Shown here piece by piece: positions 5,266 to 32,197 of a stretch of DNA of 64,000 bases. The position numbers were made by a program, and so were the translations under genes. Origin of the DNA: Corynebacterium lemuris. Its GTDB lineage: Bacteria > Actinomycetota > Actinomycetes > Mycobacteriales > Mycobacteriaceae. The notes under the pieces are model-generated. The model was not told where the DNA came from and ran no database searches. It was given only the letters and a program-made list of their open reading frames with translations. The DNA lies in contig NZ_JANWTC010000002.1 in the NCBI RefSeq assembly GCF_024919295.1, positions 124,001-188,000 on the forward strand, read 5' to 3'. Numbering within the stretch: position 1 is the first letter of the stretch; the number at the start of each line of letters is the position of its first letter.

Positions 5266-6381
5266 ATGCGCCGACTCCTCGTGATTGCCGCCGCCACCGT
5301 CCTCTCCCTGACCTCCAGTGCCTGCGCCGGGGCTGGCACACGGGTCCAGACAGAGGCGTCGGAGACCTTCACGGTCACCGAGCACGGCACCTTCGACGAG
5401 GGGTGGGCGATGAGCTTCCTGCCCGGCACGGAGCACCTGCTCATCTCCGAACGCGGGGGGTCGCTGCAGCTGCGGGACCAGGGGACAGGGGAGGTCACCG
5501 AGGTCAGCGGCACACCTGAGGTGCACCACGCGGGCCAGGCGGGCATGCACGACATCATCCCCGGTCCCGGTTTCAGGCAGGACGGCACCGTTTACCTCAG
5601 CTGGGTGCGTGACCACGAGGCGGGCGCCCAGGGAGTGGTGGGTCGGGCCACCCTCGACGTGGCTGCCGCTGCCCTGGAGGACCTCGAGGTGATCTGGGAA
5701 CAGACACCCACCTCAGGCAACGGACACTTCGCCCTGCGCATGCTCATCCGGGAGGACCATCTCTACCTCACCTCCGGTGACCGACAGAAATTCAGCCCCG
5801 CCCAGGAACGGGAGACGAACCTGGGGGCCGTGCTGCGCCTGACGCTGAATGGTGACCCTGCGCCGGACAACCCCTGGGCGGCGGAGGGGAATACCGCCGC
5901 GCAGTTGTGGACCATCGGCCACCGCAACCCGCTGGGCATCGCGGAGGACAGCACGGGCTTGATCTGGGTCTCCGAGATGGGCCCGCGCGGCGGCGATGAA
6001 CTCAATCTGCTCGCCGAAGGTGAGAATTACGGCTGGCCGGAGGCATCCATGGGCAGGCATTACGACGGCCGCCCCATCCGGGACCACACCGAGGACGACG
6101 GTTTCCGTGCACCGGCCGAGTACTGGGTGCCGTCGATCTCTCCGGGCAGCCTGCTGATCTACCAGGGTGATCTCTTTGATGGCTGGGAGGACAGCGCACT
6201 GCTCGGCGGTCTGTCCGGGGAAACACTGGTGCGGGTGCAGCTCGACGGCGAGGACACGGAGATTGTCGAGCAGTGGGACATGGGGGAGCGGATCCGTGCC
6301 CTCGCCGAAGCCCCCGACGGGGCGCTGTGGGTGCTGGAGGACGACCGGGGCGGGCGGCTGCTGGAGTTACGCCCGGCCTGA
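5266..6381 (+). CDS. PQQ-dependent sugar dehydrogenase-family lipoprotein
   Basis: A 371-residue protein of the glucose/sorbosone dehydrogenase beta-propeller family (YliI-like aldose sugar dehydrogenase). Residues 1-20 form a lipoprotein signal ending at LTSSAC, so Cys20 would be lipidated and the propeller would sit outside the membrane. Family marks include the early GTFDEGWAMSFLPGTEHLLISERGG repeat, the GLIWVSEMGPRGGDELN loop and the following GENYGWP. Soluble members oxidise aldoses when PQQ is supplied; no PQQ biosynthesis gene is in the window, so the cofactor would come from elsewhere or be lacking. The gene ends convergently, overlapping the BCCT gene by 15 nt. Confidence 0.85.
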   Translation: MRRLLVIAAATVLSLTSSACAGAGTRVQTEASETFTVTEHGTFDEGWAMSFLPGTEHLLISERGGSLQLRDQGTGEVTEVSGTPEVHHAGQAGMHDIIPGPGFRQDGTVYLSWVRDHEAGAQGVVGRATLDVAAAALEDLEVIWEQTPTSGNGHFALRMLIREDHLYLTSGDRQKFSPAQERETNLGAVLRLTLNGDPAPDNPWAAEGNTAAQLWTIGHRNPLGIAEDSTGLIWVSEMGPRGGDELNLLAEGENYGWPEASMGRHYDGRPIRDHTEDDGFRAPAEYWVPSISPGSLLIYQGDLFDGWEDSALLGGLSGETLVRVQLDGEDTEIVEQWDMGERIRALAEAPDGALWVLEDDRGGRLLELRPA

Positions 6382-16197: not shown

Positions 16198-17913
16198 CTA
16201 CTTCACGTAGGGCAGCAGCAGGCGCGACTCGTGCAGGGCGTCGCGGTAGACGGTCGTGGTGGTGGCACGGCCGATCGGCAGGTGGAAGGCATCCGGCGGG
16301 AGCAGGGAGTTGTGCTCATCGGACATCGGTTCGTTGTTGGACAGCTCGGCGACGAGCCTGTGGCCCGGCATGAACGTGGCTGCGAAGGGGTAGATGCGGA
16401 TGATGTACTCGTTGATCTCGCCCGGGGTGACCGGGGTCTTGGAGGTGTGCGGGTGCACCGGGTTGCCCTCGGTCGAGCGTTCCGTGTCCAGCTCGTTCTG
16501 GCTGGCCTTGAGGTAGCCGGTGGTCACCAACTGGCGCTTACCGTTCGGGGCCACGTCCCACAGGCGCAGGATGAAGTTGGTGTCGTCCTGGTCGATGGCG
16601 GCATGGATGTGGGCGGCACCGGTGCCCATCATCTCGGTCGGCTCGGTGAACGCCGCGGTGGACCAGGAGATCATGGCGGTGTCATTGGTCAACGTCATCG
16701 GCAGCTGGGTGAAGGACTCCGGTGCGGCGTACTCCGGACCCAGCGGTTCCGGTTTGCCCGCGAGGACGTGGCGGGGACGCAGGTAGAGCGGGCGGTGCTC
16801 GATCTCCTTCGGAGGGAATGCGGCGCCGGTCTCGGTGGTGTCGGAACCCTCGACGTGGACGCTGACGGCCGGACCGTCGGTGATGCCGTTGTTGATGCCC
16901 TTGATCCAGTAGTCGTACCAGGCGAACATCTCGTCGTGGGCGTCGACGAAGGGGCGGGAGTTCATCGGGGGGTAGGCCAGGATGTCCAGCTTCTTCGGCC
17001 CCTGCACGGTGTTGAACAGCTCGATGGTGCCGTCCATCGTCCAGCCGCGGCCCTGCGCGATCTGCAGGTAGGTGGGGATGGTGATGTTCTCGGCCAGGGT
17101 GATCGGGTTGCGCTCCTCGTACCACTGCCCGTCCAGGTCGTTGAGGACGATGTCGAACCAGGCCTCGTGGTTCTTCGGGTAGTTCAGCACGTGGAACATG
17201 TTGGGCCAGCCGGCGACATCCGGGTCCTGCAGCCGCTCGGTGACGCGCGCCTTGACCTCCTCGGGGCTGAATTCCTCGAGCATGCGGGACTTGACGCCGT
17301 CGGTGAAGGCCCAGCCGGAGTCGCCACCGCGGCCCTCACGGGCGGCGCGCGGCATGAGCCACATCACGCCGCCGTGGTAGGTGGTCTCGTAGAAGTCGTA
17401 GTGGCCGCCGTTGACGAAGATGGCCTTCAGTGCCGGGGGGTTCTCGGCGGCGGCGAGCACGGACATGGAGCCGAAGTAGGAGGTGCCGATCATTCCGACG
17501 TTGCCGTCGCACCAGGGCTGCTCGGCGACCCACTGGATGAAGTCATAGGCGTCTTCACCGAGTGAGACGCCACCGGCGTTGTAGTTGCCGATGTGCTCGC
17601 CCTCGGAGTGACCGCTGCCGCGGACATCCCCGATGACGTGGACATAGTCTTCCGCGACGACACGGGCGATGTCGCCGGCCTCGATGCAGCCGTCCCACAG
17701 GACGGAGGGGCGGTACTGGGCAGGCATGGTCAAAGACAGTGCCTGGAGTTCCTTGCCGTAGGGGGACAGTGCGATCAGTGCAGGTCGCGGGGTGTCGTCG
17801 GGCTTGTGATAGGCGTCGGCGGCCATGAGGGCGCCGTCGCGCATCGGGATGCGCAGATCCTTGCGCACGGCGATCTGCTCGGTGCCGGCGGTGATCCTGG
17901 TGTAATCGGCCAT
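16198..17913 (-). CDS. CocE/NonD family hydrolase
   Basis: A 571-residue alpha/beta serine hydrolase of the X-prolyl dipeptidyl-peptidase/cocaine-esterase family. The N-terminal catalytic domain shows DVRGSGHSEG and the nucleophile elbow GTSYFGS; the final 220 residues form the jelly-roll domain. Members cleave esters or acyl-proline peptides. The ATG at 17913 has AGGAG nearby; the frame continues 23 codons upstream without family match. There is no signal peptide, so it is cytoplasmic. It is divergent from an MBL hydrolase across a shared AT-rich promoter, suggesting joint use on one compound. Confidence 0.85.
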   Translation of the reverse strand: MADYTRITAGTEQIAVRKDLRIPMRDGALMAADAYHKPDDTPRPALIALSPYGKELQALSLTMPAQYRPSVLWDGCIEAGDIARVVAEDYVHVIGDVRGSGHSEGEHIGNYNAGGVSLGEDAYDFIQWVAEQPWCDGNVGMIGTSYFGSMSVLAAAENPPALKAIFVNGGHYDFYETTYHGGVMWLMPRAAREGRGGDSGWAFTDGVKSRMLEEFSPEEVKARVTERLQDPDVAGWPNMFHVLNYPKNHEAWFDIVLNDLDGQWYEERNPITLAENITIPTYLQIAQGRGWTMDGTIELFNTVQGPKKLDILAYPPMNSRPFVDAHDEMFAWYDYWIKGINNGITDGPAVSVHVEGSDTTETGAAFPPKEIEHRPLYLRPRHVLAGKPEPLGPEYAAPESFTQLPMTLTNDTAMISWSTAAFTEPTEMMGTGAAHIHAAIDQDDTNFILRLWDVAPNGKRQLVTTGYLKASQNELDTERSTEGNPVHPHTSKTPVTPGEINEYIIRIYPFAATFMPGHRLVAELSNNEPMSDEHNSLLPPDAFHLPIGRATTTTVYRDALHESRLLLPYVK

Positions 17914-18038: not shown

Positions 18039-18959
18039 ATGACCACTCCCGTCCACCCGCTGATCTCCCCCTGGGGACGTTTCGGCCTCTACACCTTCCT
18101 CATCGACGCCCCGCGGCTGGCCATCGTGGACACCGGCATCGCCTCCTCCCCCGCAGAGGGCATGGCCCCTGAACTGGAGAAACTTGGCCGCAGCATCGAG
18201 GACGTCGAATGGATCCTGCTCACCCACGGCCACATCGACCACATGGGCGGGGCACACGCCCTCTGGGAGCTGACCGGACGCAAAGCGAAGGTCGTCCTCC
18301 ACGAGGCGGACGTGCCCTACCTGGCCTCCCGCCGGGCGCATGTGGACAACTACCTGGGGCTGCGCGCCCAGTACCTGGACAACCCGGACGCGGAGGCCCA
18401 GCAGACTGCCATGGCCCAGAAGGTCATCTCCGGGGAAATGCAGCCGAGCATGATCGTCCGCGGCGGGGAGATCCTCGACCTCGGCGGGGGAGTCACCGTC
18501 TCCGTCCACCACACCCCGGGGCACACCGCAGGCTCGGTCTCCTATGTCATCGACGGCCAGAACGACGTCTTCGTCGGTGACGCCGTGCAGATCCACGGCG
18601 CCGCCAACGGCTTCCCCGGTTACGAGGACCCCGACGCCTACCGTTCCTCCCTGGAGTACCTGCGGGACGTGGTCCGGCCGAACCGCATGTACCAGGGCCA
18701 CCCCTACGGCACTGCCGCCGGCGAGCCCTACGGTGTCGAACTCGACCGCGAGACCGCCCACCGGGCGCTGCAGGACAGCCTGGACATCGAGGCGCGTATC
18801 CGCGAGGCGGTCGCGCGTACCGACGCCGCCGACACCGACTCTCCGTACTCGCCCTACGAAGCTGTCGCCGCTGAGTTGGGCTACGGGAAGGACCCCATTC
18901 TCGAGCCCTCCCCGTTCTTCACCACGGTCCACGGATACCGCTCTCTCGTTCAGGGGTAG
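18039..18959 (+). CDS. MBL-fold metallo-hydrolase
   Basis: A 306-residue metallo-beta-lactamase-fold enzyme. Ligand motifs are LLTHGHIDHMGG (H-x-H-x-D-H), VSVHHTPGHTAGS and VFVGDAV, followed by a late YQGHPYG histidine. This order resembles glyoxalase-II and quorum lactonase relatives, but the substrate is not known. CAGGAGAC lies just before the ATG. It is divergent from the CocE-type hydrolase, sharing a promoter region of 125 bp. Confidence 0.85.
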   Translation: MTTPVHPLISPWGRFGLYTFLIDAPRLAIVDTGIASSPAEGMAPELEKLGRSIEDVEWILLTHGHIDHMGGAHALWELTGRKAKVVLHEADVPYLASRRAHVDNYLGLRAQYLDNPDAEAQQTAMAQKVISGEMQPSMIVRGGEILDLGGGVTVSVHHTPGHTAGSVSYVIDGQNDVFVGDAVQIHGAANGFPGYEDPDAYRSSLEYLRDVVRPNRMYQGHPYGTAAGEPYGVELDRETAHRALQDSLDIEARIREAVARTDAADTDSPYSPYEAVAAELGYGKDPILEPSPFFTTVHGYRSLVQG

Positions 18960-19009: not shown

Positions 19010-19594
19010 ATGACCACCCAGCGCCGCCCTGTCCCTCGTCGACGCCGAACCGGTTACCTCCTCGGTGGTGTCGCCGCTGTTGTTGCCGCTGGCGTGGCCG
19101 CCACCTCCCTGCTCTCCGCTGAGGAGTCGGCGGCACCCGCGGACCCCACCGAACCTGCCGAGGACGCCCACATCGTGGAGGCGAAGGGGGAGATCCCCGC
19201 TGAGGTGGTGGAGCCCGAACCGGAGCCGGAACCGCCCTTCGACTTCGGGGAATGCCCGCCGACCGCGCGTGCCTGCGTCGACCTGGAGGGCGAACGCGCC
19301 TGGCTGCAGCGGGACGGGGAGGTCACCTACGACGCCGTCCCCATCGGCCAGGGTGGACCGGGTTATGAGACGCCGCCGGGGACATTCCATGTCACCCGCA
19401 AGGTGGAGTACGACGTCTCCTACGCCTTCGACATGGCCCCGATGCCCTTCTCGGTGTACTTCACCAACGTCGGCCACGCCTTCCACGAGGGCGATCCGGA
19501 GGGCGACTCCCACGGCTGCGTCCGCCTCGGCCCCGGCCACGCCGAGCACTACTTCGGCGAGCTGCAGATCGGCGACGCGATCCACATCTACTGA
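19010..19594 (+). CDS. L,D-transpeptidase (YkuD domain)
   Basis: A 194-residue exported protein. An Arg-rich N-terminus and one hydrophobic helix (residues about 15-36) serve as signal or anchor, followed by an acidic Pro-Glu linker (EPEPEPEPPF). The YkuD catalytic motif is HAFHEGDPEGDSHGCVRLG with Cys170 as nucleophile. These enzymes make 3-3 cross-links in peptidoglycan or attach proteins to it. The substrate-recognition domain usual in Ldt proteins is missing, so this is a minimal version. A near-consensus promoter places transcription start on the ATG. Confidence 0.88.
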   Translation: MTTQRRPVPRRRRTGYLLGGVAAVVAAGVAATSLLSAEESAAPADPTEPAEDAHIVEAKGEIPAEVVEPEPEPEPPFDFGECPPTARACVDLEGERAWLQRDGEVTYDAVPIGQGGPGYETPPGTFHVTRKVEYDVSYAFDMAPMPFSVYFTNVGHAFHEGDPEGDSHGCVRLGPGHAEHYFGELQIGDAIHIY

Positions 19595-19615: not shown

Positions 19616-20074
19616 TCAGAAACGCAGCACCAGAGTCCCGGGATCGTAGCCCTCCCCGGCCGGCAGGAAACCGTGGCGCTCATAGAGGTGGCGGGCGGGA
19701 TTACCCTTCTCCACACTCAGGCTGATGCCCGGCATGCCCTTCTCCCGGGCCAGCGCGACTATCCCCTCCAGCAGCTGGCCACCCAGGCCACGCCCACGGT
19801 GGCCCTCCGCCACCCAGATGCTCAGCTCGGGGATGGACTCCTCGACGAAGCCGTAGCCCGGATCATCAGCGGGGAAGAAACGCAGCCACACCACACCCAC
19901 CGGACCGCCATCCTCAGCCACCAGCCCCTCGTCAGCGGCGACATAATGGGCGAGCGTGGGTGTATTCATCACGTCGTCGAAGGCGTAGCGCGGACCCGCC
20001 CAGTTGATGTTGCCCAGGGTGGCCTGGGAGAGCAGGGCCTGTTCGTCAGCTCGTAGGGGGCGGATGGTGGTCAT
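19616..20074 (-). CDS. GNAT-family N-acetyltransferase
   Basis: A 152-residue acetyltransferase. The acetyl-CoA loop is EGHRGRGLGGQLLEGIVALARE, then SLSVEKGNPARHLYERHGFLP closes the fold. ATG at 20074 was chosen because TTIRPLRADE is the family's first strand; the frame runs 70 codons further upstream through low-complexity sequence that is not family-like and overlaps the region ahead of the PACE gene. Substrate unknown. It is convergent with the L,D-transpeptidase. Confidence 0.8.
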   Translation of the reverse strand: MTTIRPLRADEQALLSQATLGNINWAGPRYAFDDVMNTPTLAHYVAADEGLVAEDGGPVGVVWLRFFPADDPGYGFVEESIPELSIWVAEGHRGRGLGGQLLEGIVALAREKGMPGISLSVEKGNPARHLYERHGFLPAGEGYDPGTLVLRF

Positions 20075-20277
20075 GGTGTGGCCTGCCTCGGGTTGAACCT
20101 CGCCGGAATCTTTCGGGGGAAACCGTCCTCGCCCGTTATGGTACGGATTCGCGGGCGGCCCCGGACACCGGCAGGCATCCGGGCCACACAACCTGCTAGA
20201 GTCTCCGGCGTTGCACGCATCATGGATGTGAACCTGTCTTGAGGCTTCCCATGGATTCCGATTCTGAGGAGGCTTTT

Positions 20278-20712
20278 GTGTCACCGATTCTGCGGCGCGT
20301 CATCTACGTCGCGTCCTACGAGATCATCGCCATCGCATTCGTCACCGTCGCCCTGGTGGTCCTGGGCTTCGGGGGAGGCAGCTCCGGGCTCATCGCCGTG
20401 GTGTCCTCCGCCGTGGCCATCGTATGGAACTTCATCTGGAACACCCTTTTCGAGGCCTGGGAACGCCGCCAGGCCTCAACAAAGCGCACCATCGCGCGCC
20501 GGGTCGTCCACTCCCTGGGCTTCGAGGGCGGACTGATCATCTTCCTCGTGCCCATTCTCGCCTGGATTCTCCAGGTCTCACTGGTGGAGGCCTTCATCCT
20601 CGAGCTGGGTCTGCTGGTCTTCTTCCTTATCTACACCTTCGTCTTCGCCTGGGTCTTCGACCTGGTGCTTCCGCCGCGGGCGCGGGTCGTCGACAGCTCG
20701 AAACCCCACTGA
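20278..20712 (+). CDS. PACE-family multidrug efflux protein
   Basis: A 144-residue, four-helix protein made of two tandem bacterial transmembrane-pair repeats. The repeats open with LRRVIYVASYEIIAIAFV and VVHSLGFEGGLIIFLVP, each with the conserved Glu; the first pair ends in WNFIWNTLFEAWERR, the PACE signature. AceI-type members export chlorhexidine and other biocides. GTG at 20278 is chosen because GAGGAGG sits 6 nt upstream and the family starts just before this point; an ATG at 20251 adds nine acidic residues. A strong hairpin terminator follows. The family is best known in Proteobacteria. Confidence 0.8.
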   Translation: MSPILRRVIYVASYEIIAIAFVTVALVVLGFGGGSSGLIAVVSSAVAIVWNFIWNTLFEAWERRQASTKRTIARRVVHSLGFEGGLIIFLVPILAWILQVSLVEAFILELGLLVFFLIYTFVFAWVFDLVLPPRARVVDSSKPH

Positions 20713-20767: not shown

Positions 20768-22033
20768 CTAGTTGTCCACCACCACCGTGTGGCTGCCACC
20801 CACCTTGCTGGGGGCGGATTCGCGCAGGAAGAGCGCGAAGAAGGTGGCCACGAGTGCGCCGCCGGAGGAGATGAACAGGGCAGAGGCCAGGCCGTACTGG
20901 TCGGCCACGGCACCGGTGATCACCGGGTTGAGGAAGCCGCCGACGAATTCGCCGATGCCCACCGGCAGGCCCACGGCCAGACCGGCGACAGCCGGGCGGA
21001 CGGACTCGGCGGGGATGACGGACATGGCCAGACCACCCACGCCCATGCCGGCGGCGAAGACGAACACCGCGGCGCCCAGCAGACCGGGATTACCCACGTA
21101 GACGAAGGCCAGGGGAGCCAGCGTCGAGAGCAGGCCGAAGACGATGGCGGTGGGCCTGCGGCCGATGCGGTCGGAGACCAACGGGACGACGAAACCCCAG
21201 ATGGCGGTCCCCACGCCGAAGGCGGCGAGGATCAGGCTCATGGAGCTGGCGCTCCAGCCGCGGATGTTGGTGAGGTACAGCGGGCCGAAGACCTGCAGGG
21301 CGATCAGGTAGACCATGAATCCGGAGAACATGACGATCGACAGCCACACGTTGCGGTTGCGCAGGACCTCAGACAGACCACCCTTATGGTCGGGGTGTGC
21401 GTAGTCGACGGCCTCCGGGGTGACGGCCTGCGGTTCGCGCATCACCTTCCAGATGACGAAGGCCATGATCAGGCCCGGGATGATGGTGAAGAAGAAGGCG
21501 GTACGCCAGTCGAAGATGTTGGCCAGGGCGACGATGATGATGGGGGCGAGCACGCCGCCGAAGAGCCCGTTGGCGGTGTTCATGGTGAATCCGAGGTTGA
21601 AGCCGCGGCGGTGCGGGGAGGATTCCATCGCCAGCACCGACTGGGTGACGGGGATGGTGGGTCCCTCGAACATGCCCATGAGCAGGCGCAGGATGATCAG
21701 GTGCATGAAGGTGCCCACGAAGCCCTGCATGAAGGAGGCCAGGGAGAAGGCGACCATGAGGACGACGAGGTAGACGCGCTTGCTCTTCACCCGGTCGGAG
21801 AGGCGGCCACCCACGATGGAGGCGATCGACCAGGTCAGTGCCGCCGCACCCGCGAGCTGGCCCACCTGCGCGTTGCTCAGGCCCAGGTCCGCCTGGATGA
21901 AGGGCATGAGGAAGTTGATGATCAGTCGGTCGAAGAACACCAGGCCGACGGCGAAGAAGAACACCGTGACGAGTTTGTTCTCGTAGGTCCAGAATGACTT
22001 CTTTGCGGTCCCGGGGGACGTGGTGGTGGTCAT
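20768..22033 (-). CDS. MFS transporter (anion:cation symporter type)
   Basis: A 421-residue major facilitator with twelve helices. The loop motifs GGRLSDRVKSKR and, in the second half, VPLVSDRIGRRPT are the MFS signatures, and the opening FFFAVGLVFFDRLIINFLMPF followed by MGMFEGPTIPVTQ places it with the hexuronate/galactonate-type symporters that import organic acids. It is the last gene of the minus-strand catabolic cluster, 40 nt after the other MFS gene. The ATG at 22033 is preferred to one 9 nt upstream because of the nearby purine run; the choice is weak. Confidence 0.8.
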   Translation of the reverse strand: MTTTTSPGTAKKSFWTYENKLVTVFFFAVGLVFFDRLIINFLMPFIQADLGLSNAQVGQLAGAAALTWSIASIVGGRLSDRVKSKRVYLVVLMVAFSLASFMQGFVGTFMHLIILRLLMGMFEGPTIPVTQSVLAMESSPHRRGFNLGFTMNTANGLFGGVLAPIIIVALANIFDWRTAFFFTIIPGLIMAFVIWKVMREPQAVTPEAVDYAHPDHKGGLSEVLRNRNVWLSIVMFSGFMVYLIALQVFGPLYLTNIRGWSASSMSLILAAFGVGTAIWGFVVPLVSDRIGRRPTAIVFGLLSTLAPLAFVYVGNPGLLGAAVFVFAAGMGVGGLAMSVIPAESVRPAVAGLAVGLPVGIGEFVGGFLNPVITGAVADQYGLASALFISSGGALVATFFALFLRESAPSKVGGSHTVVVDN

Positions 22034-22073
22034 GATGGCCACTTTCGGTTGGGGGATATCAGCGGTGGAGGAG

Positions 22074-23444
22074 TCAGACGGTGGTGGGGGCGGGGGTGTT
22101 CACATCCGGGGTGGCGGGGGCGGACGGCGCCTGCCTCCTGCCGAGGGGGACGAGGAGGAAGGCTGCCGCGGCGATGAAGCCGGGGATGGCGAAGAAGAGG
22201 AAGTTCATCTGCGAGGACACACCCATGGACAGCAGCAGGCCACCGAAGGTGGGCCCGCCGATGGCGCCGAGTCGGCCGATGCCGGAGGCCATGCCGATGG
22301 CGGTGGAGCGGATGTGGGAGGGGTAGTACTGGGAGACGAAGGCGTAGGAGATGTTCTGGGCGCCCATGGTGCAGGCACCCGCGATGAACACCAGGGCGAT
22401 GAGCATGGCGAAGCTGTTGCCGTAGCCCAGGGCGATGATCGAGATGCCGGCGACGAGGAACATCGGGACAAGCACCTTCTTCACGCCCAGTTTGTCAGCC
22501 AGACGCCCCAGCGTCAGGGTGCCGATGATCGCGCCGATGTTCATCGTGGCCATGAAGGTCAGGCCGGCGGTCAGCGCGTAGCCGGCGTTGACCATCAGTC
22601 CCGGCAGCCAGGTGTTCAGACCGTTGACCATGAGCAGGCACATGAAGAAGGCGACCCAGACCATGAGGGTGGCCAGGGCACGGCCGTCGGTGAACAGGGC
22701 GGCCAGCGGGCTGCGCTTCACGGCAGCTGCGTCAACCGGCGCCTCGGAGACGGCGACCAGTTCGGTGACCGGGGAGACCTTGCCCGGGGCGATGCGTTCA
22801 AGGATGGCGTGCAGCCTGTTCCCCCGGCCGGTGGCGAGCAGCACGGCGGGGGAGTCCGCGAAGTAGGGGAGCATGAGCGGCAGCAGGAGCAGCGGGATGG
22901 CGGCGACGTAGTAGGTGGCCTGCCAACCGAAGCGGGGGATGACCACCATGGCGACCAGGGCGGCGAGGATGCCGCCGACGGAGAAGAAGCTCATGACGAT
23001 GGCCACGAAGGTGTTGGCCAGGCGCTTCGGGGCGTAGTCGGTGAGCATCGCGATGATGGTGGGCAGGATGCCGCCGATGCCCAGGCCGGCGATGAAGCGG
23101 AGGCCGCCGAAGACCGCCGGGCCGGGGGCTACCGCGCACAGGACGGTGGCGACGGAGAACATGACGATGCTGGCGATGAGGATGTTGCGGCGGCCGAAAC
23201 GGTCGGCGAGCAGGCCGAAGACCATGGCACCGACCATCATGCCGAACAGCCCGGAGCTTCCCACCAGTCCCGCCTGTGCGGGGGTGATGCCCCAATCGGT
23301 CATGAGGACGGGCAGAACCGAGCCGAAGATGACCAGGTCGTACATGTCGAAGGTGATGATCACGCACGCCCAGAACAGCATCCAGAAGTGGAACGGCGTG
23401 AATTTGCCTTCCGCGAGGAAGGAGGTGACGTTCAGTCGGCTCAT
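22074..23444 (-). CDS. MFS transporter, aromatic-acid:H+ symporter type
   Basis: A 456-residue, twelve-helix carrier. The first helix carries FDMYDLVIFGSVLPVLM, the acidic motif of the AAHS group (PcaK, BenK, MucK); loop 2-3 has GLLADRFGRR and loop 8-9 GRLADKLGVK. This group imports protonated aromatic acids, so an aromatic or related acid is the probable cluster substrate. GAGG stands 7 nt before the ATG at 23444. A hairpin terminator immediately upstream separates it from the hydrolase gene, so expression would need read-through or an unseen promoter. Confidence 0.82.
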   Translation of the reverse strand: MSRLNVTSFLAEGKFTPFHFWMLFWACVIITFDMYDLVIFGSVLPVLMTDWGITPAQAGLVGSSGLFGMMVGAMVFGLLADRFGRRNILIASIVMFSVATVLCAVAPGPAVFGGLRFIAGLGIGGILPTIIAMLTDYAPKRLANTFVAIVMSFFSVGGILAALVAMVVIPRFGWQATYYVAAIPLLLLPLMLPYFADSPAVLLATGRGNRLHAILERIAPGKVSPVTELVAVSEAPVDAAAVKRSPLAALFTDGRALATLMVWVAFFMCLLMVNGLNTWLPGLMVNAGYALTAGLTFMATMNIGAIIGTLTLGRLADKLGVKKVLVPMFLVAGISIIALGYGNSFAMLIALVFIAGACTMGAQNISYAFVSQYYPSHIRSTAIGMASGIGRLGAIGGPTFGGLLLSMGVSSQMNFLFFAIPGFIAAAAFLLVPLGRRQAPSAPATPDVNTPAPTTV

Positions 23445-23464
23445 GTCAGGCCTCATTCAGGTAG

Positions 23465-23522: not shown

Positions 23523-24413
23523 TCAGTTGAGGAATCTGGCGGTGTCGTGGAACACCTCGTAGAACTCGGGGATCCACGAGAAGTTGGCCACGAAGCCGTG
23601 GTTGGCGGCGTCATAACGCTTCAGCTGCGTATCCACGCCCGCCGCCTTCAGCTTCTCCGCGTATGCCTCGCCCTCATCGCGCAGCGGGTCGTAGCCTGCG
23701 GTGATGACCAGGGCCTTGGGCAGACCGGAGAAGTCGTCGCGCTTGATGGGGGAGACCAGCGGGTCCGCCGGATCCGCCCCGCCCTCAAGGTAGAAGGAGT
23801 TGAAGGGGGCCAGACCGTTGTATTCCAGGCCGTAGCCCTCGGCGTTCTCACTGAGCGAGGGCCAGCGGGAGGTGTCGAAGTCGAGGTCGACGGAGGGGTA
23901 GTAGAGGATCTGGTGGGTGATCCGGTCGAAGTTGTCGTCGTGGGCCATGGCGGTGACCGCGGCGACGAAGTTGCCGCCGGAGGAGTCGCCGGCGAGGGCG
24001 AGGGGGGTGGTGGCATCAAGCGATGCCGCCACCTCGCGGACCACGGCGTAGCACTCGTTGAGGGCCACCGGGTAGGCGACCTCGGGGGACAGCGAGTAGC
24101 CGACGGAGACAACCCGCCAGCCGGTCTCCTTCGCCAGGGCGCGCGCGACGTGGTCGTGGGTGTCCAGGCTGCCGGAGAAGAAGGCGCCGCCGTGGAGGTA
24201 GACGATTGAACCCCGGGGTGCGTCGGTGTCGGCGTAGATCCGCACCGGGACCTCCGCCAGCGTCGCATCCTCGACGGAGGCCACCGGGGTGCGCTTCTCG
24301 ACGGGTGCGACGTGGCCGGCCTCGAAGGCGCGGTGTTCAGCCGGGTTGGGCGGGGTGGTGGAGGCGGGCGGGATCTGGGCGACGATCTTCGCGATCTCGG
24401 GGTGCAGTGTCAT
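23523..24413 (-). CDS. alpha/beta hydrolase (HSL/acetyl-hydrolase family)
   Basis: A 296-residue esterase of the hormone-sensitive-lipase group. It has the oxyanion motif YLHGGAFFSG, the nucleophile elbow GDSSGG with Ser144, an Asp in TAGYDPLRDEG and the catalytic His in AANHGF, so it should be active. Typical substrates are short acyl esters and lactones. It is third after two phosphotriesterase-like genes and a flavin monooxygenase on the same strand and is followed by a terminator, so it probably works on a product of the monooxygenase. The ATG at 24413 starts a typical LHPEIAKIVAQIP opening. Confidence 0.85.
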   Translation of the reverse strand: MTLHPEIAKIVAQIPPASTTPPNPAEHRAFEAGHVAPVEKRTPVASVEDATLAEVPVRIYADTDAPRGSIVYLHGGAFFSGSLDTHDHVARALAKETGWRVVSVGYSLSPEVAYPVALNECYAVVREVAASLDATTPLALAGDSSGGNFVAAVTAMAHDDNFDRITHQILYYPSVDLDFDTSRWPSLSENAEGYGLEYNGLAPFNSFYLEGGADPADPLVSPIKRDDFSGLPKALVITAGYDPLRDEGEAYAEKLKAAGVDTQLKRYDAANHGFVANFSWIPEFYEVFHDTARFLN

Positions 24414-24521: not shown

Positions 24522-25649
24522 CTAGTAGTCGATCTTGTCCTTCTCGGGGAAAGCGGTCTCGCCTGCGGATTCCGCGTTCCAGGACTCGCGCGAGATGCGC
24601 TGCAGCTCCTGGACCGGGCCCTTGCGCTGGGCAGTGTAGGCGGCCAGTGCCTCGGGCACGCTGTCGGCCTCGGCGATGCAGTCGGCCAGCACACCGGCGT
24701 CGATGACGGCGGAGTTGGCACCCTGGCCCTGGTGGTGGAGCATGGCGTGGGCGGCGTCGCCGATCAGCACCACGGCGTCGGAGTTCCACTTGTCCTGCGG
24801 GTCCAGGTCAGCGGCGGAACGCTGGTTGACCTTCTCCCAGTCGAGCTTCTCGACGATGCGGATCAGCCGCTCATCGAAGTTCTTCAGCATCTCCAGCACC
24901 TCCTCCTTGGAAACCTCCGGGTTCCAGGTGGTGTCCTCATGGGGCACGGTGATGTCGAAGGAGATCTGGCCGTTCTCACCGCGGTGGCGCAGCGGCAGGA
25001 AGTAGATCATGCGGCCGGTCTCGGCCTCGAGGTAGAGACGCAGGTTGTCGTCGACGAGCAGGCCCTCACCGAGGGAACCGTCGATGACCGCACGGTAGGC
25101 GTGGGCGTGCTGCATGACCGGCTGGGAGTCGGACCACAGCGCGCGGACACGTGACTTGATGCCGTCGGCGCCGACGAGGATGTCGAAGGTCTCCTCCTCG
25201 CCGTTGCTGAACTTCACGGTGGCGGAGTCGCCGTTGTCGGTGATCTCCTCGGCGCGGTAGCCGTACTGGAGGACACCCTCCGGCAGGGAACCGGTGAGCA
25301 CGTCGATGAAGTCGCGGCGGTGGACCATGCGGGTGTGGTGCTTCTCCTCGCCCTCCTCCAGGTGCGGCCAGACCTCGCGGTTGATGACGTTGCCCTTTTC
25401 ATCGAGGATCTCGAAGTAGTCGGAGGGGGAGGTGGCCTTCTCCACGGCCTCGAAGATGCCCAGCTTCTTGAACAGCTTGACCGACGCCGGGCGCAGGCCG
25501 ATGCCGGCGCCGACCTCACCGGAGGCGGGGGCCTGCTCGTAGACCTTGACGTCGGCCCCGATCTGGGACAGCGCCAGGCCCGCGGTGGCACCGGCGTAGC
25601 CGCCGCCGATGACGCCGATCTTCAGGTTCTTGATGTCTTCAGCCTTCAT
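24522..25649 (-). CDS. class A FAD-dependent monooxygenase
   Basis: A 375-residue flavoprotein hydroxylase. Motifs in order: the dinucleotide fold IGVIGGGYAGATAGLALSQ, the DILVGADGIKSRVR (DG) motif and the VVLIGDAAHAML (GD) motif that binds the FAD ribityl chain. The family uses NAD(P)H and O2 to hydroxylate aromatic or heteroaromatic acids such as salicylate, 3-hydroxybenzoate and 6-hydroxynicotinate; which one is not decided by these motifs. The neighbouring AAHS carrier also points to an aromatic acid. It starts 27 nt after the active phosphotriesterase-family gene. Confidence 0.85.
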   Translation of the reverse strand: MKAEDIKNLKIGVIGGGYAGATAGLALSQIGADVKVYEQAPASGEVGAGIGLRPASVKLFKKLGIFEAVEKATSPSDYFEILDEKGNVINREVWPHLEEGEEKHHTRMVHRRDFIDVLTGSLPEGVLQYGYRAEEITDNGDSATVKFSNGEEETFDILVGADGIKSRVRALWSDSQPVMQHAHAYRAVIDGSLGEGLLVDDNLRLYLEAETGRMIYFLPLRHRGENGQISFDITVPHEDTTWNPEVSKEEVLEMLKNFDERLIRIVEKLDWEKVNQRSAADLDPQDKWNSDAVVLIGDAAHAMLHHQGQGANSAVIDAGVLADCIAEADSVPEALAAYTAQRKGPVQELQRISRESWNAESAGETAFPEKDKIDY

Positions 25650-25676: not shown

Positions 25677-26642
25677 CTACTTGGCCGGCTTCGCGGTGAG
25701 GAAGTCGTGGGCGTGGTCGTGGAAGAGGCGGTGGATGACGTCATCGGCGACGCCGTTGCGCTTCAGGTCCGGGATGAGGACCTCGAAGATGTAGTTGATG
25801 GTGTGGCCCTTGACACCGGGCCAGCCCAGCGGGGAGCAGTTGGCGTCCGCGGAGGCCAGCAGCTTGGCCTCGTGGCCTGCCTCGAGCTCGCGCAGGAAAT
25901 GGTCCATGCGCTCCTTGCGGGGACGGGCCCAGAACGGCGGGTCGGGCAGTTCGGTCTCGTAGCCGAAGGTGTCGAAGCCCAGTCGGCCGCCCACCTCGAG
26001 GATGCGCCCGGTGGGGGTCTGCGCGTGGTTGACGCCGTCGTCGACGTGGCCGAAGAGCACCCGGTCGAGGTCGAGGCCCTCCTCCTGGAAGATGGCGATC
26101 GCCGGCTCGGCGTCGATGGCCAGGTGGGTCATGACCGGCACACCGGTCTGGACGGCGGCGCGGGCCGCGGCGCGGTAGATGCGCTTGTCCAGCTCAGTCA
26201 TGCGGCCGCCACGGGAGACGCCGACCTTGATGATGCCGGCCTTCGCGTTGGTGCCGGTGATGCCGACGGTGATCTCATGGAGGAAGACCTCGGTGAGGTA
26301 CTCGACGGAGGCGCGGGCGAAGTGGGCCAGGGCGGTGTCACCGCCGACGAAGCCGGTGCAGGCCACGATGTGGACGCCGGTCTTCTCGGAGAGGGACTGG
26401 TAGTAGGGGATGTCGCGGCCGTTGCAGATGCCGGTGGCGTCGACGAAGGTGGCGGCGCCACCCGCGTACTCACGGAATTTGCGCAGCTTGGGGACGGTCT
26501 CCTCGTAGCGGACCTCGGGGGACTTCCACCATTTGGTGTCGAGCTCGGAGCCGGGCATGCCGTAGCCGATGTGCTCGTGGATGGCGACGAATCCGAGTTC
26601 CTCCACCGGGATTGCGCCGAGGACGGTGTTGACGAAAGACAA
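25677..26642 (-). CDS. phosphotriesterase-family metallohydrolase (ligands intact)
   Basis: A 321-residue TIM-barrel hydrolase. All binuclear-centre ligands are present: His22 and His24 (IHEHIG), Lys139 for carboxylation (IIKVGVS), His173 (MTHLAI), His199 (FGHVDD) and Asp266 (ASADAN). The family hydrolyses lactones, esters or phosphotriesters; in a catabolic cluster lactonase activity is most natural. The start is TTG at 26642, 6 nt after AAGGAG; the frame upstream lies inside the previous gene. It is 10 nt after a paralogue that has lost these ligands, so the two were probably made together by duplication. Confidence 0.85.
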   Translation of the reverse strand: MSFVNTVLGAIPVEELGFVAIHEHIGYGMPGSELDTKWWKSPEVRYEETVPKLRKFREYAGGAATFVDATGICNGRDIPYYQSLSEKTGVHIVACTGFVGGDTALAHFARASVEYLTEVFLHEITVGITGTNAKAGIIKVGVSRGGRMTELDKRIYRAAARAAVQTGVPVMTHLAIDAEPAIAIFQEEGLDLDRVLFGHVDDGVNHAQTPTGRILEVGGRLGFDTFGYETELPDPPFWARPRKERMDHFLRELEAGHEAKLLASADANCSPLGWPGVKGHTINYIFEVLIPDLKRNGVADDVIHRLFHDHAHDFLTAKPAK

Positions 26643-26652
26643 CGTGGGCTCC

Positions 26653-27603
26653 TTAGTTGTTCTCGCGGACGGTGATGAACTCGCGCGGGTTGTCCCGGAG
26701 GATGCGCTGCGCATCCTCCTCGGACAGGCCGAGTCCCGGGATGAAGTCGGCGGCGACGGTGCTGTAGGCGACCTCGCGGGGCGCAAGCCCCTTCGCTACG
26801 CCGATGGCGTTGGACGAGCAGATGATGTGCCCGCCGAGACCCTCAGCGATGAGGGTGCGGATGAGCTCGCCGCGGGCGGCGTCGTCAAGCAGCCCCTCGG
26901 ACTCGGTGCCGACGTTGTCGATGCCGACGTAGGCGCCCTTGCGGGCGATCTCGAGCGCCGGGGCGCCGACGCGGTCGCAGCCGCCGACGAGCACGCGGGC
27001 GGGGTCGAGGCCCTCGGACAACACGATCTCGAGGTCGCCGAGGGCGTTGTCACCGTACTGGAAGGACATCGGCGCACCGGTCTCCTTGGCGGCACGGGCG
27101 GCACCGCGCAGAAGGGACTCGTCGGTGGCGGTGCGGCCCGCGCGGGTGACGGCGGTGACGATGAGGCCGGCGCCAGCGCGGCGCTCCACGCGCGGCATGA
27201 CCATGCCCTCGGTCACCTCTTTACCGAAGAGGTCAGCGAATTTCTCGGCCGGCCACGGGGTCGGCGGGTTGGTCTGCGGGGTGAGGAAGTAGCCGCCGAG
27301 CAGCTCTTCCGGGCCCTGGCCGGTGGAGGCGATGATGTGGACGCCGGTGGCCTCGGACAGGACCTCCAGCAGGGGGAGGTCCCGGCCGTGGAACATGCCG
27401 GTGGCATCCACGATGGCGTCGCCGCCGTGGGACTTGAAGTCCTCGAGCTTGGCCTTGAGGGTGGCGAAGATCTCGGGGCGGTCGAAGGTGATGTCGGGGG
27501 CGTACTGGGCGCCGGGGAGCACGGAGAGCAGGGCCTCGTGGACCGCGACGGTACCCAGGTCTGCGGAGGGGACGGGGCCGAGGACGGTGTTGACTGTCGT
27601 CAT
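26653..27603 (-). CDS. phosphotriesterase-like protein lacking metal ligands
   Basis: A 316-residue paralogue of the next gene: both begin with NTVLG, keep DATG near residue 68, GRD, the SE-TGVHI strand and AARAA, so the barrel is conserved. The metal site is not. HEH has become HEA, the carboxylated Lys is Thr (LIVTAVT), the third His is Phe (MSFQYG), the fourth is Gly (VGGCDR), and the final Asp is replaced (CSSNAI). Only the first His remains. It should not bind two metals; a non-catalytic subunit, a regulator or a metal-free activity is possible. It is the first gene of the cluster. Confidence 0.8.
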   Translation of the reverse strand: MTTVNTVLGPVPSADLGTVAVHEALLSVLPGAQYAPDITFDRPEIFATLKAKLEDFKSHGGDAIVDATGMFHGRDLPLLEVLSEATGVHIIASTGQGPEELLGGYFLTPQTNPPTPWPAEKFADLFGKEVTEGMVMPRVERRAGAGLIVTAVTRAGRTATDESLLRGAARAAKETGAPMSFQYGDNALGDLEIVLSEGLDPARVLVGGCDRVGAPALEIARKGAYVGIDNVGTESEGLLDDAARGELIRTLIAEGLGGHIICSSNAIGVAKGLAPREVAYSTVAADFIPGLGLSEEDAQRILRDNPREFITVRENN

Positions 27604-27899: not shown

Positions 27900-28637
27900 C
27901 TACGTGACGAAATGGTATTTGAATTCCTCCGCCTGATGGATGGCCAGACGCCATCCCGCAGGTACCCCGCCGGTGGAGAAGAAAATCGTCTCGATGGCCA
28001 GCAGCGGGCTACCTTCCGCCACCCCGAGTGCCTTAGCCTGCCTGGTGGTGGCCGCCGTCGCCCACGCCTCATGCTCCGCCCGGTCGAGGGTGATGCCGTA
28101 TTCGCGTTCCAGCAGTTCCATCGCCGAACCCCGCTCCTCCAGGAACTCCACGCTCGGCAGGAAACCCTCGGGGGAGCGGATGTAGACATCGGCGTCGACG
28201 AGCGGCTCACCGTCAATCGACATCAGCCGGGTGAAGTGCAGCAGCCGCTCATCCTCCGGCAGTCCCAGGCGCGCCCGGATACGCGCGGGGGGAACCACCC
28301 GTTCCGGCTCCGAGACCGTCGAGGTCGGCTTGAGCCCCTTGTCGGCGAGGAACTGGAACAACCCGCCCGGACGGATATCCGCCGGCCGGTCCACCCGCGC
28401 CCCCACCACGGGGAAGGTGCCCTTGCCCTGCTTGCGGTAGACGAAGCCCTCCGTGGTCAGATCGCTGAGCGCCTGCCGGATCGGGGCGCGGCTGACGCCG
28501 AAACGTTCCAGCAGCTGCGCCTCCGTCATGGGCACGCCCGGGTCGGCGGTACCGCTGGTGATCTCCCTGCGGAGGATCTCCTTGATCTGCTTGTACATGG
28601 GGACCCCGGAGACGGGGTCGAGCTCACCGGTCGACAT
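27900..28637 (-). CDS. GntR/HutC-family transcriptional regulator
   Basis: A 245-residue regulator. The N-terminal winged helix reads MYKQIKEILRREI, then TEAQLLERFGVSRAPIRQALSDLTTEGFVYRKQGKGTF, the GntR signature. The rest is a UTRA ligand domain (residues about 85-240) typical of HutC members that sense small acids or sugars. It ends 76 bp from the inverted repeat in the catabolic cluster promoter and most likely represses that cluster until a substrate appears. The ATG at 28637 overlaps the upstream gene's end by 14 nt and has no ribosome-binding site, which implies translational coupling. Confidence 0.85.
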   Translation of the reverse strand: MSTGELDPVSGVPMYKQIKEILRREITSGTADPGVPMTEAQLLERFGVSRAPIRQALSDLTTEGFVYRKQGKGTFPVVGARVDRPADIRPGGLFQFLADKGLKPTSTVSEPERVVPPARIRARLGLPEDERLLHFTRLMSIDGEPLVDADVYIRSPEGFLPSVEFLEERGSAMELLEREYGITLDRAEHEAWATAATTRQAKALGVAEGSPLLAIETIFFSTGGVPAGWRLAIHQAEEFKYHFVT

Positions 28638-29427
28638 GGTTCGAGTCAACCACAGGCGAGGGGACGATCCTGGAACCGGTGGGCAGCGGGTCGACCAGCT
28701 CCACCCCGTCCACCGTCACCGACCACGGCCCGCTCAGATCCGGCGCCGGTTCCGGGGGTGGCGGCGGAACCGGCTCTGCCAGCGGGTGAATCGACTCCGG
28801 CTCGCCGTGATCGACGTCGAGGAACGCCGCCCCGCCGACCACGAACACCCGCACCCCGAGAGACCCGGGGCCGGCCAGATGCTCCTGCATCCGGTGGGCG
28901 ATGAGCGGATCCAGGGTCGCGATGACCGCACCGTCCACCGTCACCTCAACTCCGTCCAGCAGCCCCAGCAGCTGGCGGTCGGGGCCGTCCACGTCGGGCA
29001 GCTCCACCGGGAAGCGGCGCCCCTGCGGCAGCACCGACGTCCCCTCGGGCAGCGAGTTCCACGGGACGGCGAGCTCAGGGGCGGGAAGTTCCACCGAGAC
29101 GTCGAGAAGCCCGCGGTCGCGGTTGATGCACACCCGGGCGCGGACCGCCGGCTCCTGCCGGATGGCGTGCACGCGGTCGATGTCCCGGAAAACCTGGCGG
29201 ATGCCCGCCGGCAGCGAACCGATTGTGCCGTAGCCCCAGCGCACCCGCCAGCCACCCCGCACCAGGTCCGGGACCAGCCGCACTGGGATGAGCGTGCCCG
29301 ACGGCTCGATGAGCTCTGCCGTGCGCAGATGGGAGAAGAGGATCGCCTGGCTGACCTTCTCCACCGGCAGGGAATGCACATCAGTGCCCGCCGGCGGACG
29401 GGCGAGGGGGTAGCTGGGGACGACCAT
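28624..29427 (-). CDS. conserved protein of unknown function
   Basis: A 267-residue protein I do not recognise. The N-terminal 130 residues contain VEKVSQAILFSHLRTAELIEPSGTLIPVRLVPDLVRGGWRV and look globular; there are several VxVELP-type strands. Near residue 223 a PPPPPEP linker leads to a short C-terminal strand segment (GPWSVTVDGVELVDPLP). No signal peptide or membrane helix is present. The ATG at 29427 is 7 nt after TAAGCT, a possible -10 for a leaderless transcript. It overlaps the GntR gene by 14 nt and may share its regulation. Confidence 0.55.
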   Translation of the reverse strand: MVVPSYPLARPPAGTDVHSLPVEKVSQAILFSHLRTAELIEPSGTLIPVRLVPDLVRGGWRVRWGYGTIGSLPAGIRQVFRDIDRVHAIRQEPAVRARVCINRDRGLLDVSVELPAPELAVPWNSLPEGTSVLPQGRRFPVELPDVDGPDRQLLGLLDGVEVTVDGAVIATLDPLIAHRMQEHLAGPGSLGVRVFVVGGAAFLDVDHGEPESIHPLAEPVPPPPPEPAPDLSGPWSVTVDGVELVDPLPTGSRIVPSPVVDSNHVDR

Positions 29428-30837: not shown

Positions 30838-32139
30838 CTAGCCGGTTGCGCTGATCCGCACGCCGGTCGCCGGGCGGGTGAGCATCCGGGTCCAGGGGAA
30901 GGTCGTGTCCTTCACGTCAGAGGAGATCGTGACGCCCGGGCGGCACATGACTACGACTGCCGCGGCCAGGGCGGAGACGGTGATCTTCTCGCCGGGGCAG
31001 CGGTGCCCGGTGCGCACGTCACCGCCGCCCTGGGGGATGAAGGCGGTGATGGACTCCGCCGCCTCCACACCGTCATAGGGCAGGAAGCGTTCCGGGTCGA
31101 AGGAGCCGGCGTCCCGCCATTCGGCGGGGGAGGTGAGGGTGCCCACGAAGTCCAGCAGCACGCGCTGGCCCTTCTGCACCGGACAACCGCTGATCTCGGT
31201 GTCCTTCTTCGCCAGGGCAGGCAGCATCGGCACGAAGGGGTGGGTGCGGCGCACCTCCTGGGCGAAGGCGACCGCCTCCGGAATATCAGTGACGGAGCCG
31301 CCTGCCTGCTGCGAGGCCGCCCGGATCCGTTCCACCCATTCCGGGTGCTTCACCAGCGCCGCCGCGGCGAAAGCCGCGAACCGGCCCACCGCCACGGTGG
31401 GTCGGGTGAGGTTCTGCAGCTCGACTGCCGCGACCTTGTCCTCCACCAGCTCGCCGTGTTCGTCACGCAGGTCCGCCATATGGGCGAGGACGGAATCCGG
31501 GGCCGCCGCGACTTTCCCTGAGCGGACGTCCTGGATCAGTTGCGTGGCCCAGCGGTCCAGCCGCACCCGTTCCACCATGGCGACCGGGTTCTGGCTGAGC
31601 TGGCCGAAGGTGTCCAACAGGCGGTTCATCTGCCTGACCCGCCGGTTCATTTCTTCGTCGGGCAGCTCCACCCCCGCCCAGCGGAGTGCGGCGCGGCCGA
31701 AGGCGAGGGCGGCGTCATCATGGACGTTGCCCGTCCCCGCCTTCCATCGCCCGTGGGCGGCCTCGAGTTCGCCGGCCACCAGGTGCTGGAAGTCGGCGAC
31801 CCGGCCGTCGTCGTAGGCCAGGTCGGTCATGGCGTTCTTGCGCACGCGGTGGGCCTCGCCGTCGAGGGTGTGCACCGCCTTGTCCCCGAAGAGCGGGAGC
31901 TGAACGAGCTTGGGCATGGCGCCGTGGCGCTCCATGAGGTCCTTGTCGTAGAAGAAACGGATCCCCTCCTCACCCCGGACGAGCACGGAGGTCTTCCCCA
32001 GCAGAGGCAGGGACAAGGGGGTGTGGGAGGTGGCCGGCAGACCGGCCTTCTCCCGGAGTCGGGAGGCGAAGAGATAGCCCCAGCGGAGGAAGCCGGGGGC
32101 CTGTTCGGTGCGGATACGGGCGGGCCTGGTCTGGGTCAT
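30838..32139 (-). CDS. CYP152-type P450 fatty-acid peroxygenase/decarboxylase
   Basis: A 433-residue P450 of the H2O2-driven CYP152 family. Evidence is the haem loop IPQGGGDVRTGHRCPGEKI with Cys381, and the distal helix TRPTVAVGRFAAF whose Arg253 binds the fatty-acid carboxylate in place of the usual acid-alcohol pair. Before the B' region it has AVHTLDGEAHRVRK; His90 aligns with His85 of the olefin-forming OleT, where P450-BS-beta has Gln. It may therefore decarboxylate fatty acids to terminal alkenes as well as hydroxylate. The ATG at 32139 was chosen over one 30 nt upstream by family length. No redox partner gene is adjacent, as expected for a peroxygenase. Confidence 0.85.
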   Translation of the reverse strand: MTQTRPARIRTEQAPGFLRWGYLFASRLREKAGLPATSHTPLSLPLLGKTSVLVRGEEGIRFFYDKDLMERHGAMPKLVQLPLFGDKAVHTLDGEAHRVRKNAMTDLAYDDGRVADFQHLVAGELEAAHGRWKAGTGNVHDDAALAFGRAALRWAGVELPDEEMNRRVRQMNRLLDTFGQLSQNPVAMVERVRLDRWATQLIQDVRSGKVAAAPDSVLAHMADLRDEHGELVEDKVAAVELQNLTRPTVAVGRFAAFAAAALVKHPEWVERIRAASQQAGGSVTDIPEAVAFAQEVRRTHPFVPMLPALAKKDTEISGCPVQKGQRVLLDFVGTLTSPAEWRDAGSFDPERFLPYDGVEAAESITAFIPQGGGDVRTGHRCPGEKITVSALAAAVVVMCRPGVTISSDVKDTTFPWTRMLTRPATGVRISATG

Positions 32140-32197
32140 GCGCCCCAACCTACGTGAGGTGCCGGTCACATGCAGGGGAGTTTATGCCGCCTTCCCG

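Follow-up and report, generated by a model that had tools for sequence, protein, structure and literature searches.

Phosphotriesterase (PTE) is a much-used model of enzyme evolution. Dihydroorotase is an enzyme of the amidohydrolase superfamily, and that superfamily includes metal-independent members, for example the pyrone hydrolase LigI. The PTE-like lactonases are homodimers (PMC3468530, PMC4323659). In trypanosomatids, dead paralogues known as prozymes activate S-adenosylmethionine decarboxylase (AdoMetDC; PMC5201418) and deoxyhypusine synthase (PMC3663545) as heteromers, and the aspartate transcarbamoylase of Pseudomonas needs an inactive chain homologous to dihydroorotase (PMC7053772). 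Here we describe a tandem pair of PTE-family genes, PTE-A and PTE-B, in a stretch of 64,000 nucleotides of Corynebacterium lemuris (RefSeq assembly GCF_024919295.1, contig NZ_JANWTC010000002.1, positions 124,001 to 188,000 of the forward strand), called the window here. The two are a real, conserved pseudoenzyme–enzyme pair, and searches of the open-licence PMC literature listed no title or abstract that describes such a pair in the phosphotriesterase family. On balance, and with modest confidence, we read the pair as an obligate heterodimer in which PTE-A, itself non-catalytic, would shape the active site of its intact sister PTE-B. We favour this reading because of the co-occurrence of the genes, their tree and a split pattern of conservation. 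To judge from the gene neighbourhood, with an FAD monooxygenase and three further hydrolases, the pair would likely hydrolyse an ester, a lactone or an amide during catabolism of an aromatic or heteroaromatic acid. The initial annotation had offered a heteromeric enzyme, a substrate-sensing subunit and a new metal-free reaction as readings of the pair; the first of these is the one retained here, and the other two are rated lower.

A tandem pair with one stripped metal site

The two genes lie on the minus strand (Table 1). The initial annotation had described a tandem PTE-family pair whose upstream gene has an intact frame and leads the operon, and we verified the frames and the coordinates. 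The PTE-A frame runs from an ATG at 27603 to a TAA at 26655–26653. The start of PTE-B is most likely the TTG at 26642–26640, ten bases past the PTE-A stop, and the overlap of the preceding AAGGAG with that stop codon makes translational coupling of the two genes possible. Both proteins belong to PF02126, with scores of 113.6 bits for PTE-A and 169.8 bits for PTE-B against a cut-off of 22.4; PTE-A has the PTE-type barrel fold and is 32% identical to PTE-B. The genome holds no other PF02126 matches. An AlphaFold2 monomer model of PTE-B, built from a 39-row alignment, has a predicted local distance difference test score (pLDDT) of 82.8.

PTE-B of the window carries all six metal ligands of the family (HHKHHD). 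In PTE-A of the window only the first His of the HxH motif is left. The alignments thus agree with the earlier count of five lost ligands, and some of the substitutions had to be corrected. The carboxylated Lys had been given as Thr and aligns with Val, Thr being the next residue; the two lone His had been given as Phe and Gly, of which Gly stands for the second, and the first aligns with Gln, preceded by the Phe. The position of the Asp ligand is Asn.

The loss extends to the whole of the sampled subfamily. Among 90 PTE-A rows taken from the loci described below, the first His is kept in 88 and the Asp in one, and the second His, the Lys and both lone His are kept in none, so that every row retains between zero and two of the six residues of the binuclear-metal site. 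All of the best 120 of 2009 matches to the window protein retain the first His alone. For the protein of Caballeronia, 119 of the best 120 of 1886 matches have no ligand (one of them has gaps at the first two ligand positions) and one has a single ligand. The two lists and the locus rows together make at least 311 distinct sequences (321 minus 10 start variants), and four to six ligands are lost in every one. The first lone-His position is Arg in 82 of the 90 locus rows and in 110 of these 120 Caballeronia-type homologues, and Gln in the clade of the window; the remaining former ligand positions are variable (A/T/V/S/C, G/D/S/N and N/G/S). The PTE-B rows have the complete binuclear set HHKHHD in 84 of 89 cases, and the other five lack some of the columns, for which broken frames or contig ends are the probable cause. 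The 37 other actinobacterial PTE rows comprise 33 with HHKHHD, two with HHGHHD and two with --GHHD, and none among them is stripped in the manner of PTE-A. Naming sources label these proteins phosphotriesterase or similar, and annotation thus credits them with an activity that they are unlikely to possess.

Could PTE-A be an enzyme in its own right? A metal-free isomerisation, decarboxylation or hydrolysis that uses the replacement Arg and residues of loops 2 and 3 would fit the frequency of that Arg in both sets of rows, the conservation of these two loops at the barrel mouth and the invariance of H72, R74, D210, R211 and D229 in the 60 rows of the PTE-A alignment (A1). We regard it as rather unlikely, since the other former ligand positions vary, β4, β5, β7 and loops 7 and 8 have drifted, the clade of the window has Gln for Arg, and nearly all Caballeronia-type rows have lost the first His. 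In place of H72 itself, the Caballeronia copy has Gln and that of another genome (G352) has Ala. A separate metal-free enzyme would also not require the strict pairing with PTE-B.

Pairing across genomes

Homologues of PTE-A were listed in Actinomycetota and Pseudomonadota (Paraburkholderia, Cupriavidus, Marinobacter and others among the matches listed). A scan of relatives selected for the presence of PTE-A retained 80 of 91 actinobacterial loci, 57–94% identical, the closest to the window being that of C. hylobatis (PTE-A 94% identical). In all 80, PTE-B comes immediately after PTE-A in the same orientation, mostly within 60 bases, with its frame cut or broken in six (L003, L007, L028, L047, L064 and L075). 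In Caballeronia the two genes overlap by 4 bases.

Samples drawn independently of PTE-A gave the same picture. In an unbiased sample of 201 Corynebacterium genomes, 11 have PTE-A, each with PTE-B adjoining. In a class-wide sample of 394 genomes the same five carry both genes and none carries either alone; scores there fell from 354 to 127 bits (genes other than PTE-B) for the PTE-A model and from 580 to 142 for the PTE-B model. Samples of three families had PTE-A in 6 of 297, 9 of 200 and 10 of 299 genomes, and PTE-B accompanied it in five, nine and ten of these, respectively. The initial annotation had proposed a search for conserved co-occurrence of the two forms; with the five samples merged without overlaps, PTE-B adjoins PTE-A in 37 of 38 genomes. 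It had also named as adverse a ligand-free gene that stands alone and decays at random in many genomes, and this was looked for in the five samples and not found. A paralogue without catalytic residues is kept beside a presumably active paralogue in 37 of the 38 genomes, as described for activating dead paralogues. In the Corynebacterium and family samples, PTE-B was told apart by its position and by scoring lower than PTE-A under the PTE-A model; the PTE-B model confirmed it in the class sample and in 13 of 13 further genomes (L083–L086 and L088–L096), and tblastn in G903, G1233 and G1272. The PTE-B model was run against the 394 genomes of the class sample to look for PTE-B standing without PTE-A, and no such case turned up there. 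Two genomes, G1233 and G1272, appeared at a limit of 1e-34 to be without PTE-B and were rejected as exceptions when a reading of the DNA placed PTE-B next door.

The sole exception, G826, is a remnant: it has an in-frame TAG, the tail of a CocE-type gene follows straight after PTE-A, and PTE-B is absent from the stretch read. PTE-A is frameshifted in G1272 and split by contig ends in G837. In G903 it is reduced to its C-terminal half (L157, about 7120–7602, minus strand), and PTE-B and the downstream module appear intact, which makes this genome a natural experiment on the need for PTE-A.

In one further genome of the Corynebacterium sample (G184; L158, G184:C1:858000-870000, about 5625–5973, minus strand) only scars of the module survive: about 350 bases hold the N-terminal 37 residues of the regulator GntR, PTE-A residues 119–160 and the end of the second transporter.

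Descent and selection

A tree of 73 sequences (19 PTE-A and 18 PTE-B, both subsampled, and 36 other actinobacterial PTEs) places PTE-A in one clade (100/100), PTE-B in another (100/100) and the two as sisters (99/95). Rooting was by midpoint, and the tree program issued a warning about the meeting of long branches, which calls for caution over the sister relation. A tandem duplication followed by loss of the metal fits this topology.

The median pairwise ratio of nonsynonymous to synonymous substitution (dN/dS) is 0.30 for PTE-A, 0.24 for PTE-B, 0.33 for the neighbouring FAD-dependent aromatic monooxygenase (FMO) and 0.24 for the neighbouring alpha/beta hydrolase (ABH); these are simple NG86 (Nei–Gojobori) values on GC-rich genes, from pairs within a window of identity and dS, and the pair sets differ by gene. 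PTE-A is under purifying selection, with a dN/dS that falls among those of the adjoining genes. Outside Corynebacterium, PTE-A is 57–66% identical and PTE-B 70–79%, and PTE-A thus diverges faster. This faster divergence, the lost ligands and the damaged copies in G826, G903 and G1272 are what a decaying duplicate retained by chance would be expected to leave. Against such decay stand the dN/dS, the strong conservation of a loop that only PTE-A has and its retention in two phyla; we rejected it on these grounds as highly improbable.

Conserved loops and a possible heterodimer interface

Conservation was measured as column entropy, the protein means being 0.89 for PTE-A and 0.67 for PTE-B. The best conserved segment of PTE-A is loop 3; loop 2, with an entropy of 0.24, and the β3–β4 hairpin are conserved as well (Table 1 for loop 3 and the hairpin). 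Both loop 3 and the hairpin, for which the model shows strands at 134–136 and 140–142, are longer than in PTE-B. The 16-mer GGYFLTPQTNPPTPWP of loop 3 is exact in 81 of the 90 PTE-A locus rows, in 119 of the 120 best-listed actinobacterial homologues and in 62 of the 120 best-listed Caballeronia-type homologues; not one of 126 rows from PTE-B and other PTEs has it exactly. Most of the former metal side has drifted, with entropies of 1.21 for β4, 1.21 for loop 4, 1.02 for β5, 1.20 for β7, 1.53 for loop 7 and 1.21 for loop 8. In PTE-B, loops 1 and 8 are tight (Table 1), as are loop 2 (0.08) and loop 7 (0.39). The block of lowest confidence in the PTE-A model, residues 101–110 with a mean of 61, lies inside loop 3, and the stretches of the PTE-B model under pLDDT 50 fall in the conserved loops 1 and 8.

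F104 of SsoPox is touched by W263 of the partner monomer, a residue at the beginning of loop 8 (PMC3781021). By the SsoPox numbering F104 lies between β3 and α3, that is in loop 3, within DLPFYFLNR, which we matched by eye to GGYFLTPQT of PTE-A. The SisLac dimer has a pivot at position 34, and residues from the second shell of the active site join in dimer formation (PMC3468530); by the same numbering position 34 falls in loop 1. The F104A substitution of PTE is reported to relieve a dimer-interface clash (PMC11230934). Because loop 3 of PTE-A and loop 8 of PTE-B are conserved, because SsoPox and SisLac make these contacts and because the model confidence drops at these places, we predict that loop 3 of PTE-A packs on loops 1 and 8 of PTE-B. 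Such packing would order or cap the predicted binuclear-metal active site of PTE-B. A PTE-A homodimer with this contact would hardly account for the conserved loop 3, since loop 8 of PTE-A has drifted. A composite active site, in which PTE-A inserts the GGYFLTPQTNPPTPWP loop into the site of PTE-B and the replacement Arg holds the carboxylate of the substrate, is a tentative extension that we place on the unlikely side. If true, it would be a division of labour between two barrels that is undescribed for the phosphotriesterase family in the open-licence PMC literature searched.

The same pairing and conservation could also come from a PTE-A that aids the dimerisation or folding of PTE-B, as a scaffold or chaperone with no role in the active site. 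There is a precedent in the inactive dihydroorotase-like chain that is required for the assembly of another enzyme (PMC7053772). We consider such an aid decidedly improbable, as the conserved loops lie at the barrel mouth and second-shell residues of SisLac take part in the dimer (PMC3468530), which makes an effect on catalysis likelier.

Several points weigh against a heterodimer that shapes the PTE-B site. Co-occurrence within one operon also fits two enzymes of one pathway, and adjacency alone is not specific to PTE-B, because FMO (79 of 81 loci) and ABH (80 of 81) are nearly as strict. Mirror-tree partial correlations over 71 loci are 0.41 for PTE-A/PTE-B, 0.53 for PTE-A/ABH and −0.02 for PTE-A/FMO (PTE-B/ABH gives 0.13), values that give no signal specific to PTE-A and PTE-B. 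The split in conservation is not clean: in PTE-A, loop 1 (0.85), β6 (0.83), loop 6 (0.91) and β8 (0.83) are about average, and the metal strands of PTE-B are tight as well (β4 0.20, β6 0.13). PTE-A residues 95–146 are enriched in near-invariant positions, but not uniquely so; 16 of 316 circular shifts, their own placement included, match their near-invariant share. Substrate binding may by itself account for the conservation of PTE-B loop 8, and the 39-row alignment may lie behind the low pLDDT. A covariation signal between PTE-A and PTE-B would have little variation to draw on, as the loops of interest are nearly invariant and the PTE-B rows have an effective number of about 23. The candidates that face inward in PTE-A, namely the first His in actinobacterial rows and the Arg at the lone-His position, could serve ligand binding or catalysis of its own. 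The half-length PTE-A beside an intact-looking PTE-B in G903 may mean that PTE-A is dispensable there, and outside Actinomycetota the pairing is documented by one record, that of Caballeronia.

The gene module

On the minus strand of the window the order is GntR/UTRA regulator, PTE-A, PTE-B, FMO, ABH and two transporters of the major facilitator superfamily (MFS). The operon is read from gene order and spacing, because a scan for sigma-70-type promoters found nothing.

Table 1. Features of the tandem pair and its module in the window.
Feature	Position	Strand	Description
PTE-A	26653..27603	-	Metal-ligand-poor phosphotriesterase-family barrel, 316 aa; heads the likely operon; 81/81 loci
PTE-A loop 3, residues 97–118	27250..27315	-	Top-conserved segment; entropy 0.21, 19/22 near-invariant; contains GGYFLTPQTNPPTPWP
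PTE-A β3–β4 hairpin, residues 132–146	27166..27210	-	Entropy 0.33, 10/15 near-invariant
AAGGAG, Shine–Dalgarno-like, for PTE-B	26649..26654	-	Sequence; overlaps the PTE-A stop codon
PTE-B	25677..26642	-	Phosphotriesterase-family protein, six intact ligands, probable TTG start; PF02126, 169.8 bits; 81/81 loci
PTE-B loop 1	26520..26558	-	Entropy 0.33, 9/13 near-invariant; pLDDT <50 at 27–40
PTE-B loop 8	25794..25853	-	Entropy 0.13, 16/20 near-invariant; pLDDT <50 at 270–280
FMO	24522..25649	-	FAD-dependent aromatic monooxygenase, PF01494; in 79/81 loci
ABH	23523..24413	-	Alpha/beta hydrolase, hormone-sensitive-lipase kind; in 80/81 loci
MFS transporter	22074..23456	-	Best NCBIfam match TIGR00895 (aromatic acid/H+ symport), 324 bits, below the cut-off of 418.55
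Second MFS transporter	20768..22042	-	Profile matches
GntR/UTRA regulator	27900..28649	-	Upstream of PTE-A; homologues upstream in part of the loci
CocE/NonD-type hydrolase	16198..17910	-	Outlying module gene; PF02129 and PF08530; homologue near PTE-A in 78/81 loci
MBL-fold hydrolase	18042..18959	+	Outlying module gene; PF00753; homologue near PTE-A in 78/81 loci

The 81 loci counted in Table 1 are the 80 relatives and the window; TetR regulators were found in 58, a cytochrome P450 in 46, a ferredoxin in 42 and a reductase in 41, and owing to identity thresholds and cuts at contig ends and flanks the lower module counts are minima. Genes for the metallo-beta-lactamase (MBL)-fold hydrolase, P450 and regulators are relocated or inverted in part of the loci. 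In most other loci the CocE and MBL genes come after ABH on the strand of PTE-A. In the window they lie about 2–5 kb beyond the second MFS gene and are mutually divergent, and open reading frames at 19010–19594 and 19616–20284 separate them from the operon. A further open reading frame of the window, at 30838–32169 on the minus strand (443 aa), may encode a protein that resembles P450 fatty-acid peroxygenases.

On plasmid p2 of Caballeronia insecticola (L152, 12434–25101) the run is TetR, P450, ferredoxin, reductase, PTE-A, PTE-B, FMO and ABH, and it continues with the MBL hydrolase, the CocE/NonD hydrolase, a transporter and an MFS transporter. The locus also holds a PF13557 protein (putative MetA pathway of phenol degradation). 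This compact, plasmid-borne module may be the best place for finding the substrate.

The best PDB sequence match of FMO is 6-hydroxynicotinate 3-monooxygenase (138 bits), and FMO is similar also to salicylate hydroxylases. The P450 of Caballeronia is best matched by CYP199 (251 bits), an enzyme that oxidises para-substituted benzoates. These best matches of FMO and P450 suggest that the module serves the catabolism of an aromatic or heteroaromatic acid. None of the leads (the similarity of FMO, the CYP199-like P450 and the transporter family) points to a single compound, and no description of this module was found in the open-licence PMC literature.

The neighbourhood also bears on whether PTE-A could be a sensing or storage protein that binds the carboxylate substrate of the pathway and tunes the pathway without a stable complex with PTE-B. 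A conserved Arg within an otherwise emptied barrel would suit such a protein, and an aromatic-acid-like transporter and regulators adjoin PTE-A. Many loci, however, already have GntR/UTRA or TetR regulators, and a sensor would leave the fixed position of PTE-A ahead of PTE-B unexplained; we hold it to be improbable.

Comparison with known systems

From PTE, SsoPox, SisLac and DrOPH, all of PF02126, PTE-A differs by its four to six missing ligands, its longer loop 3 and its β hairpin. The PTE-like lactonases of these reports are homodimeric (PMC3468530, PMC4323659), whereas PTE-A and PTE-B would form a heterodimer. LigI is a barrel of the amidohydrolase superfamily that works without metal. The partner of the pseudo-dihydroorotase is a transcarbamoylase, whereas PTE-A would partner an active copy of itself. 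Here the family-defining metal site is gone from a whole subfamily spread over two phyla, yet in the gene surroundings that were read this subfamily nearly always stands beside a metal-bearing sister. The trypanosomatid prozymes act on other enzymes, in eukaryotes and in proven complexes, whereas PTE-A and PTE-B are bacterial, lie in one gene run and form a putative complex. PTE-A resembles the prozymes as a probably dead paralogue that persists next to a presumably active counterpart, and the pair offers a bacterial system for asking how a catalytically dead copy is recruited to the service of its working paralogue.

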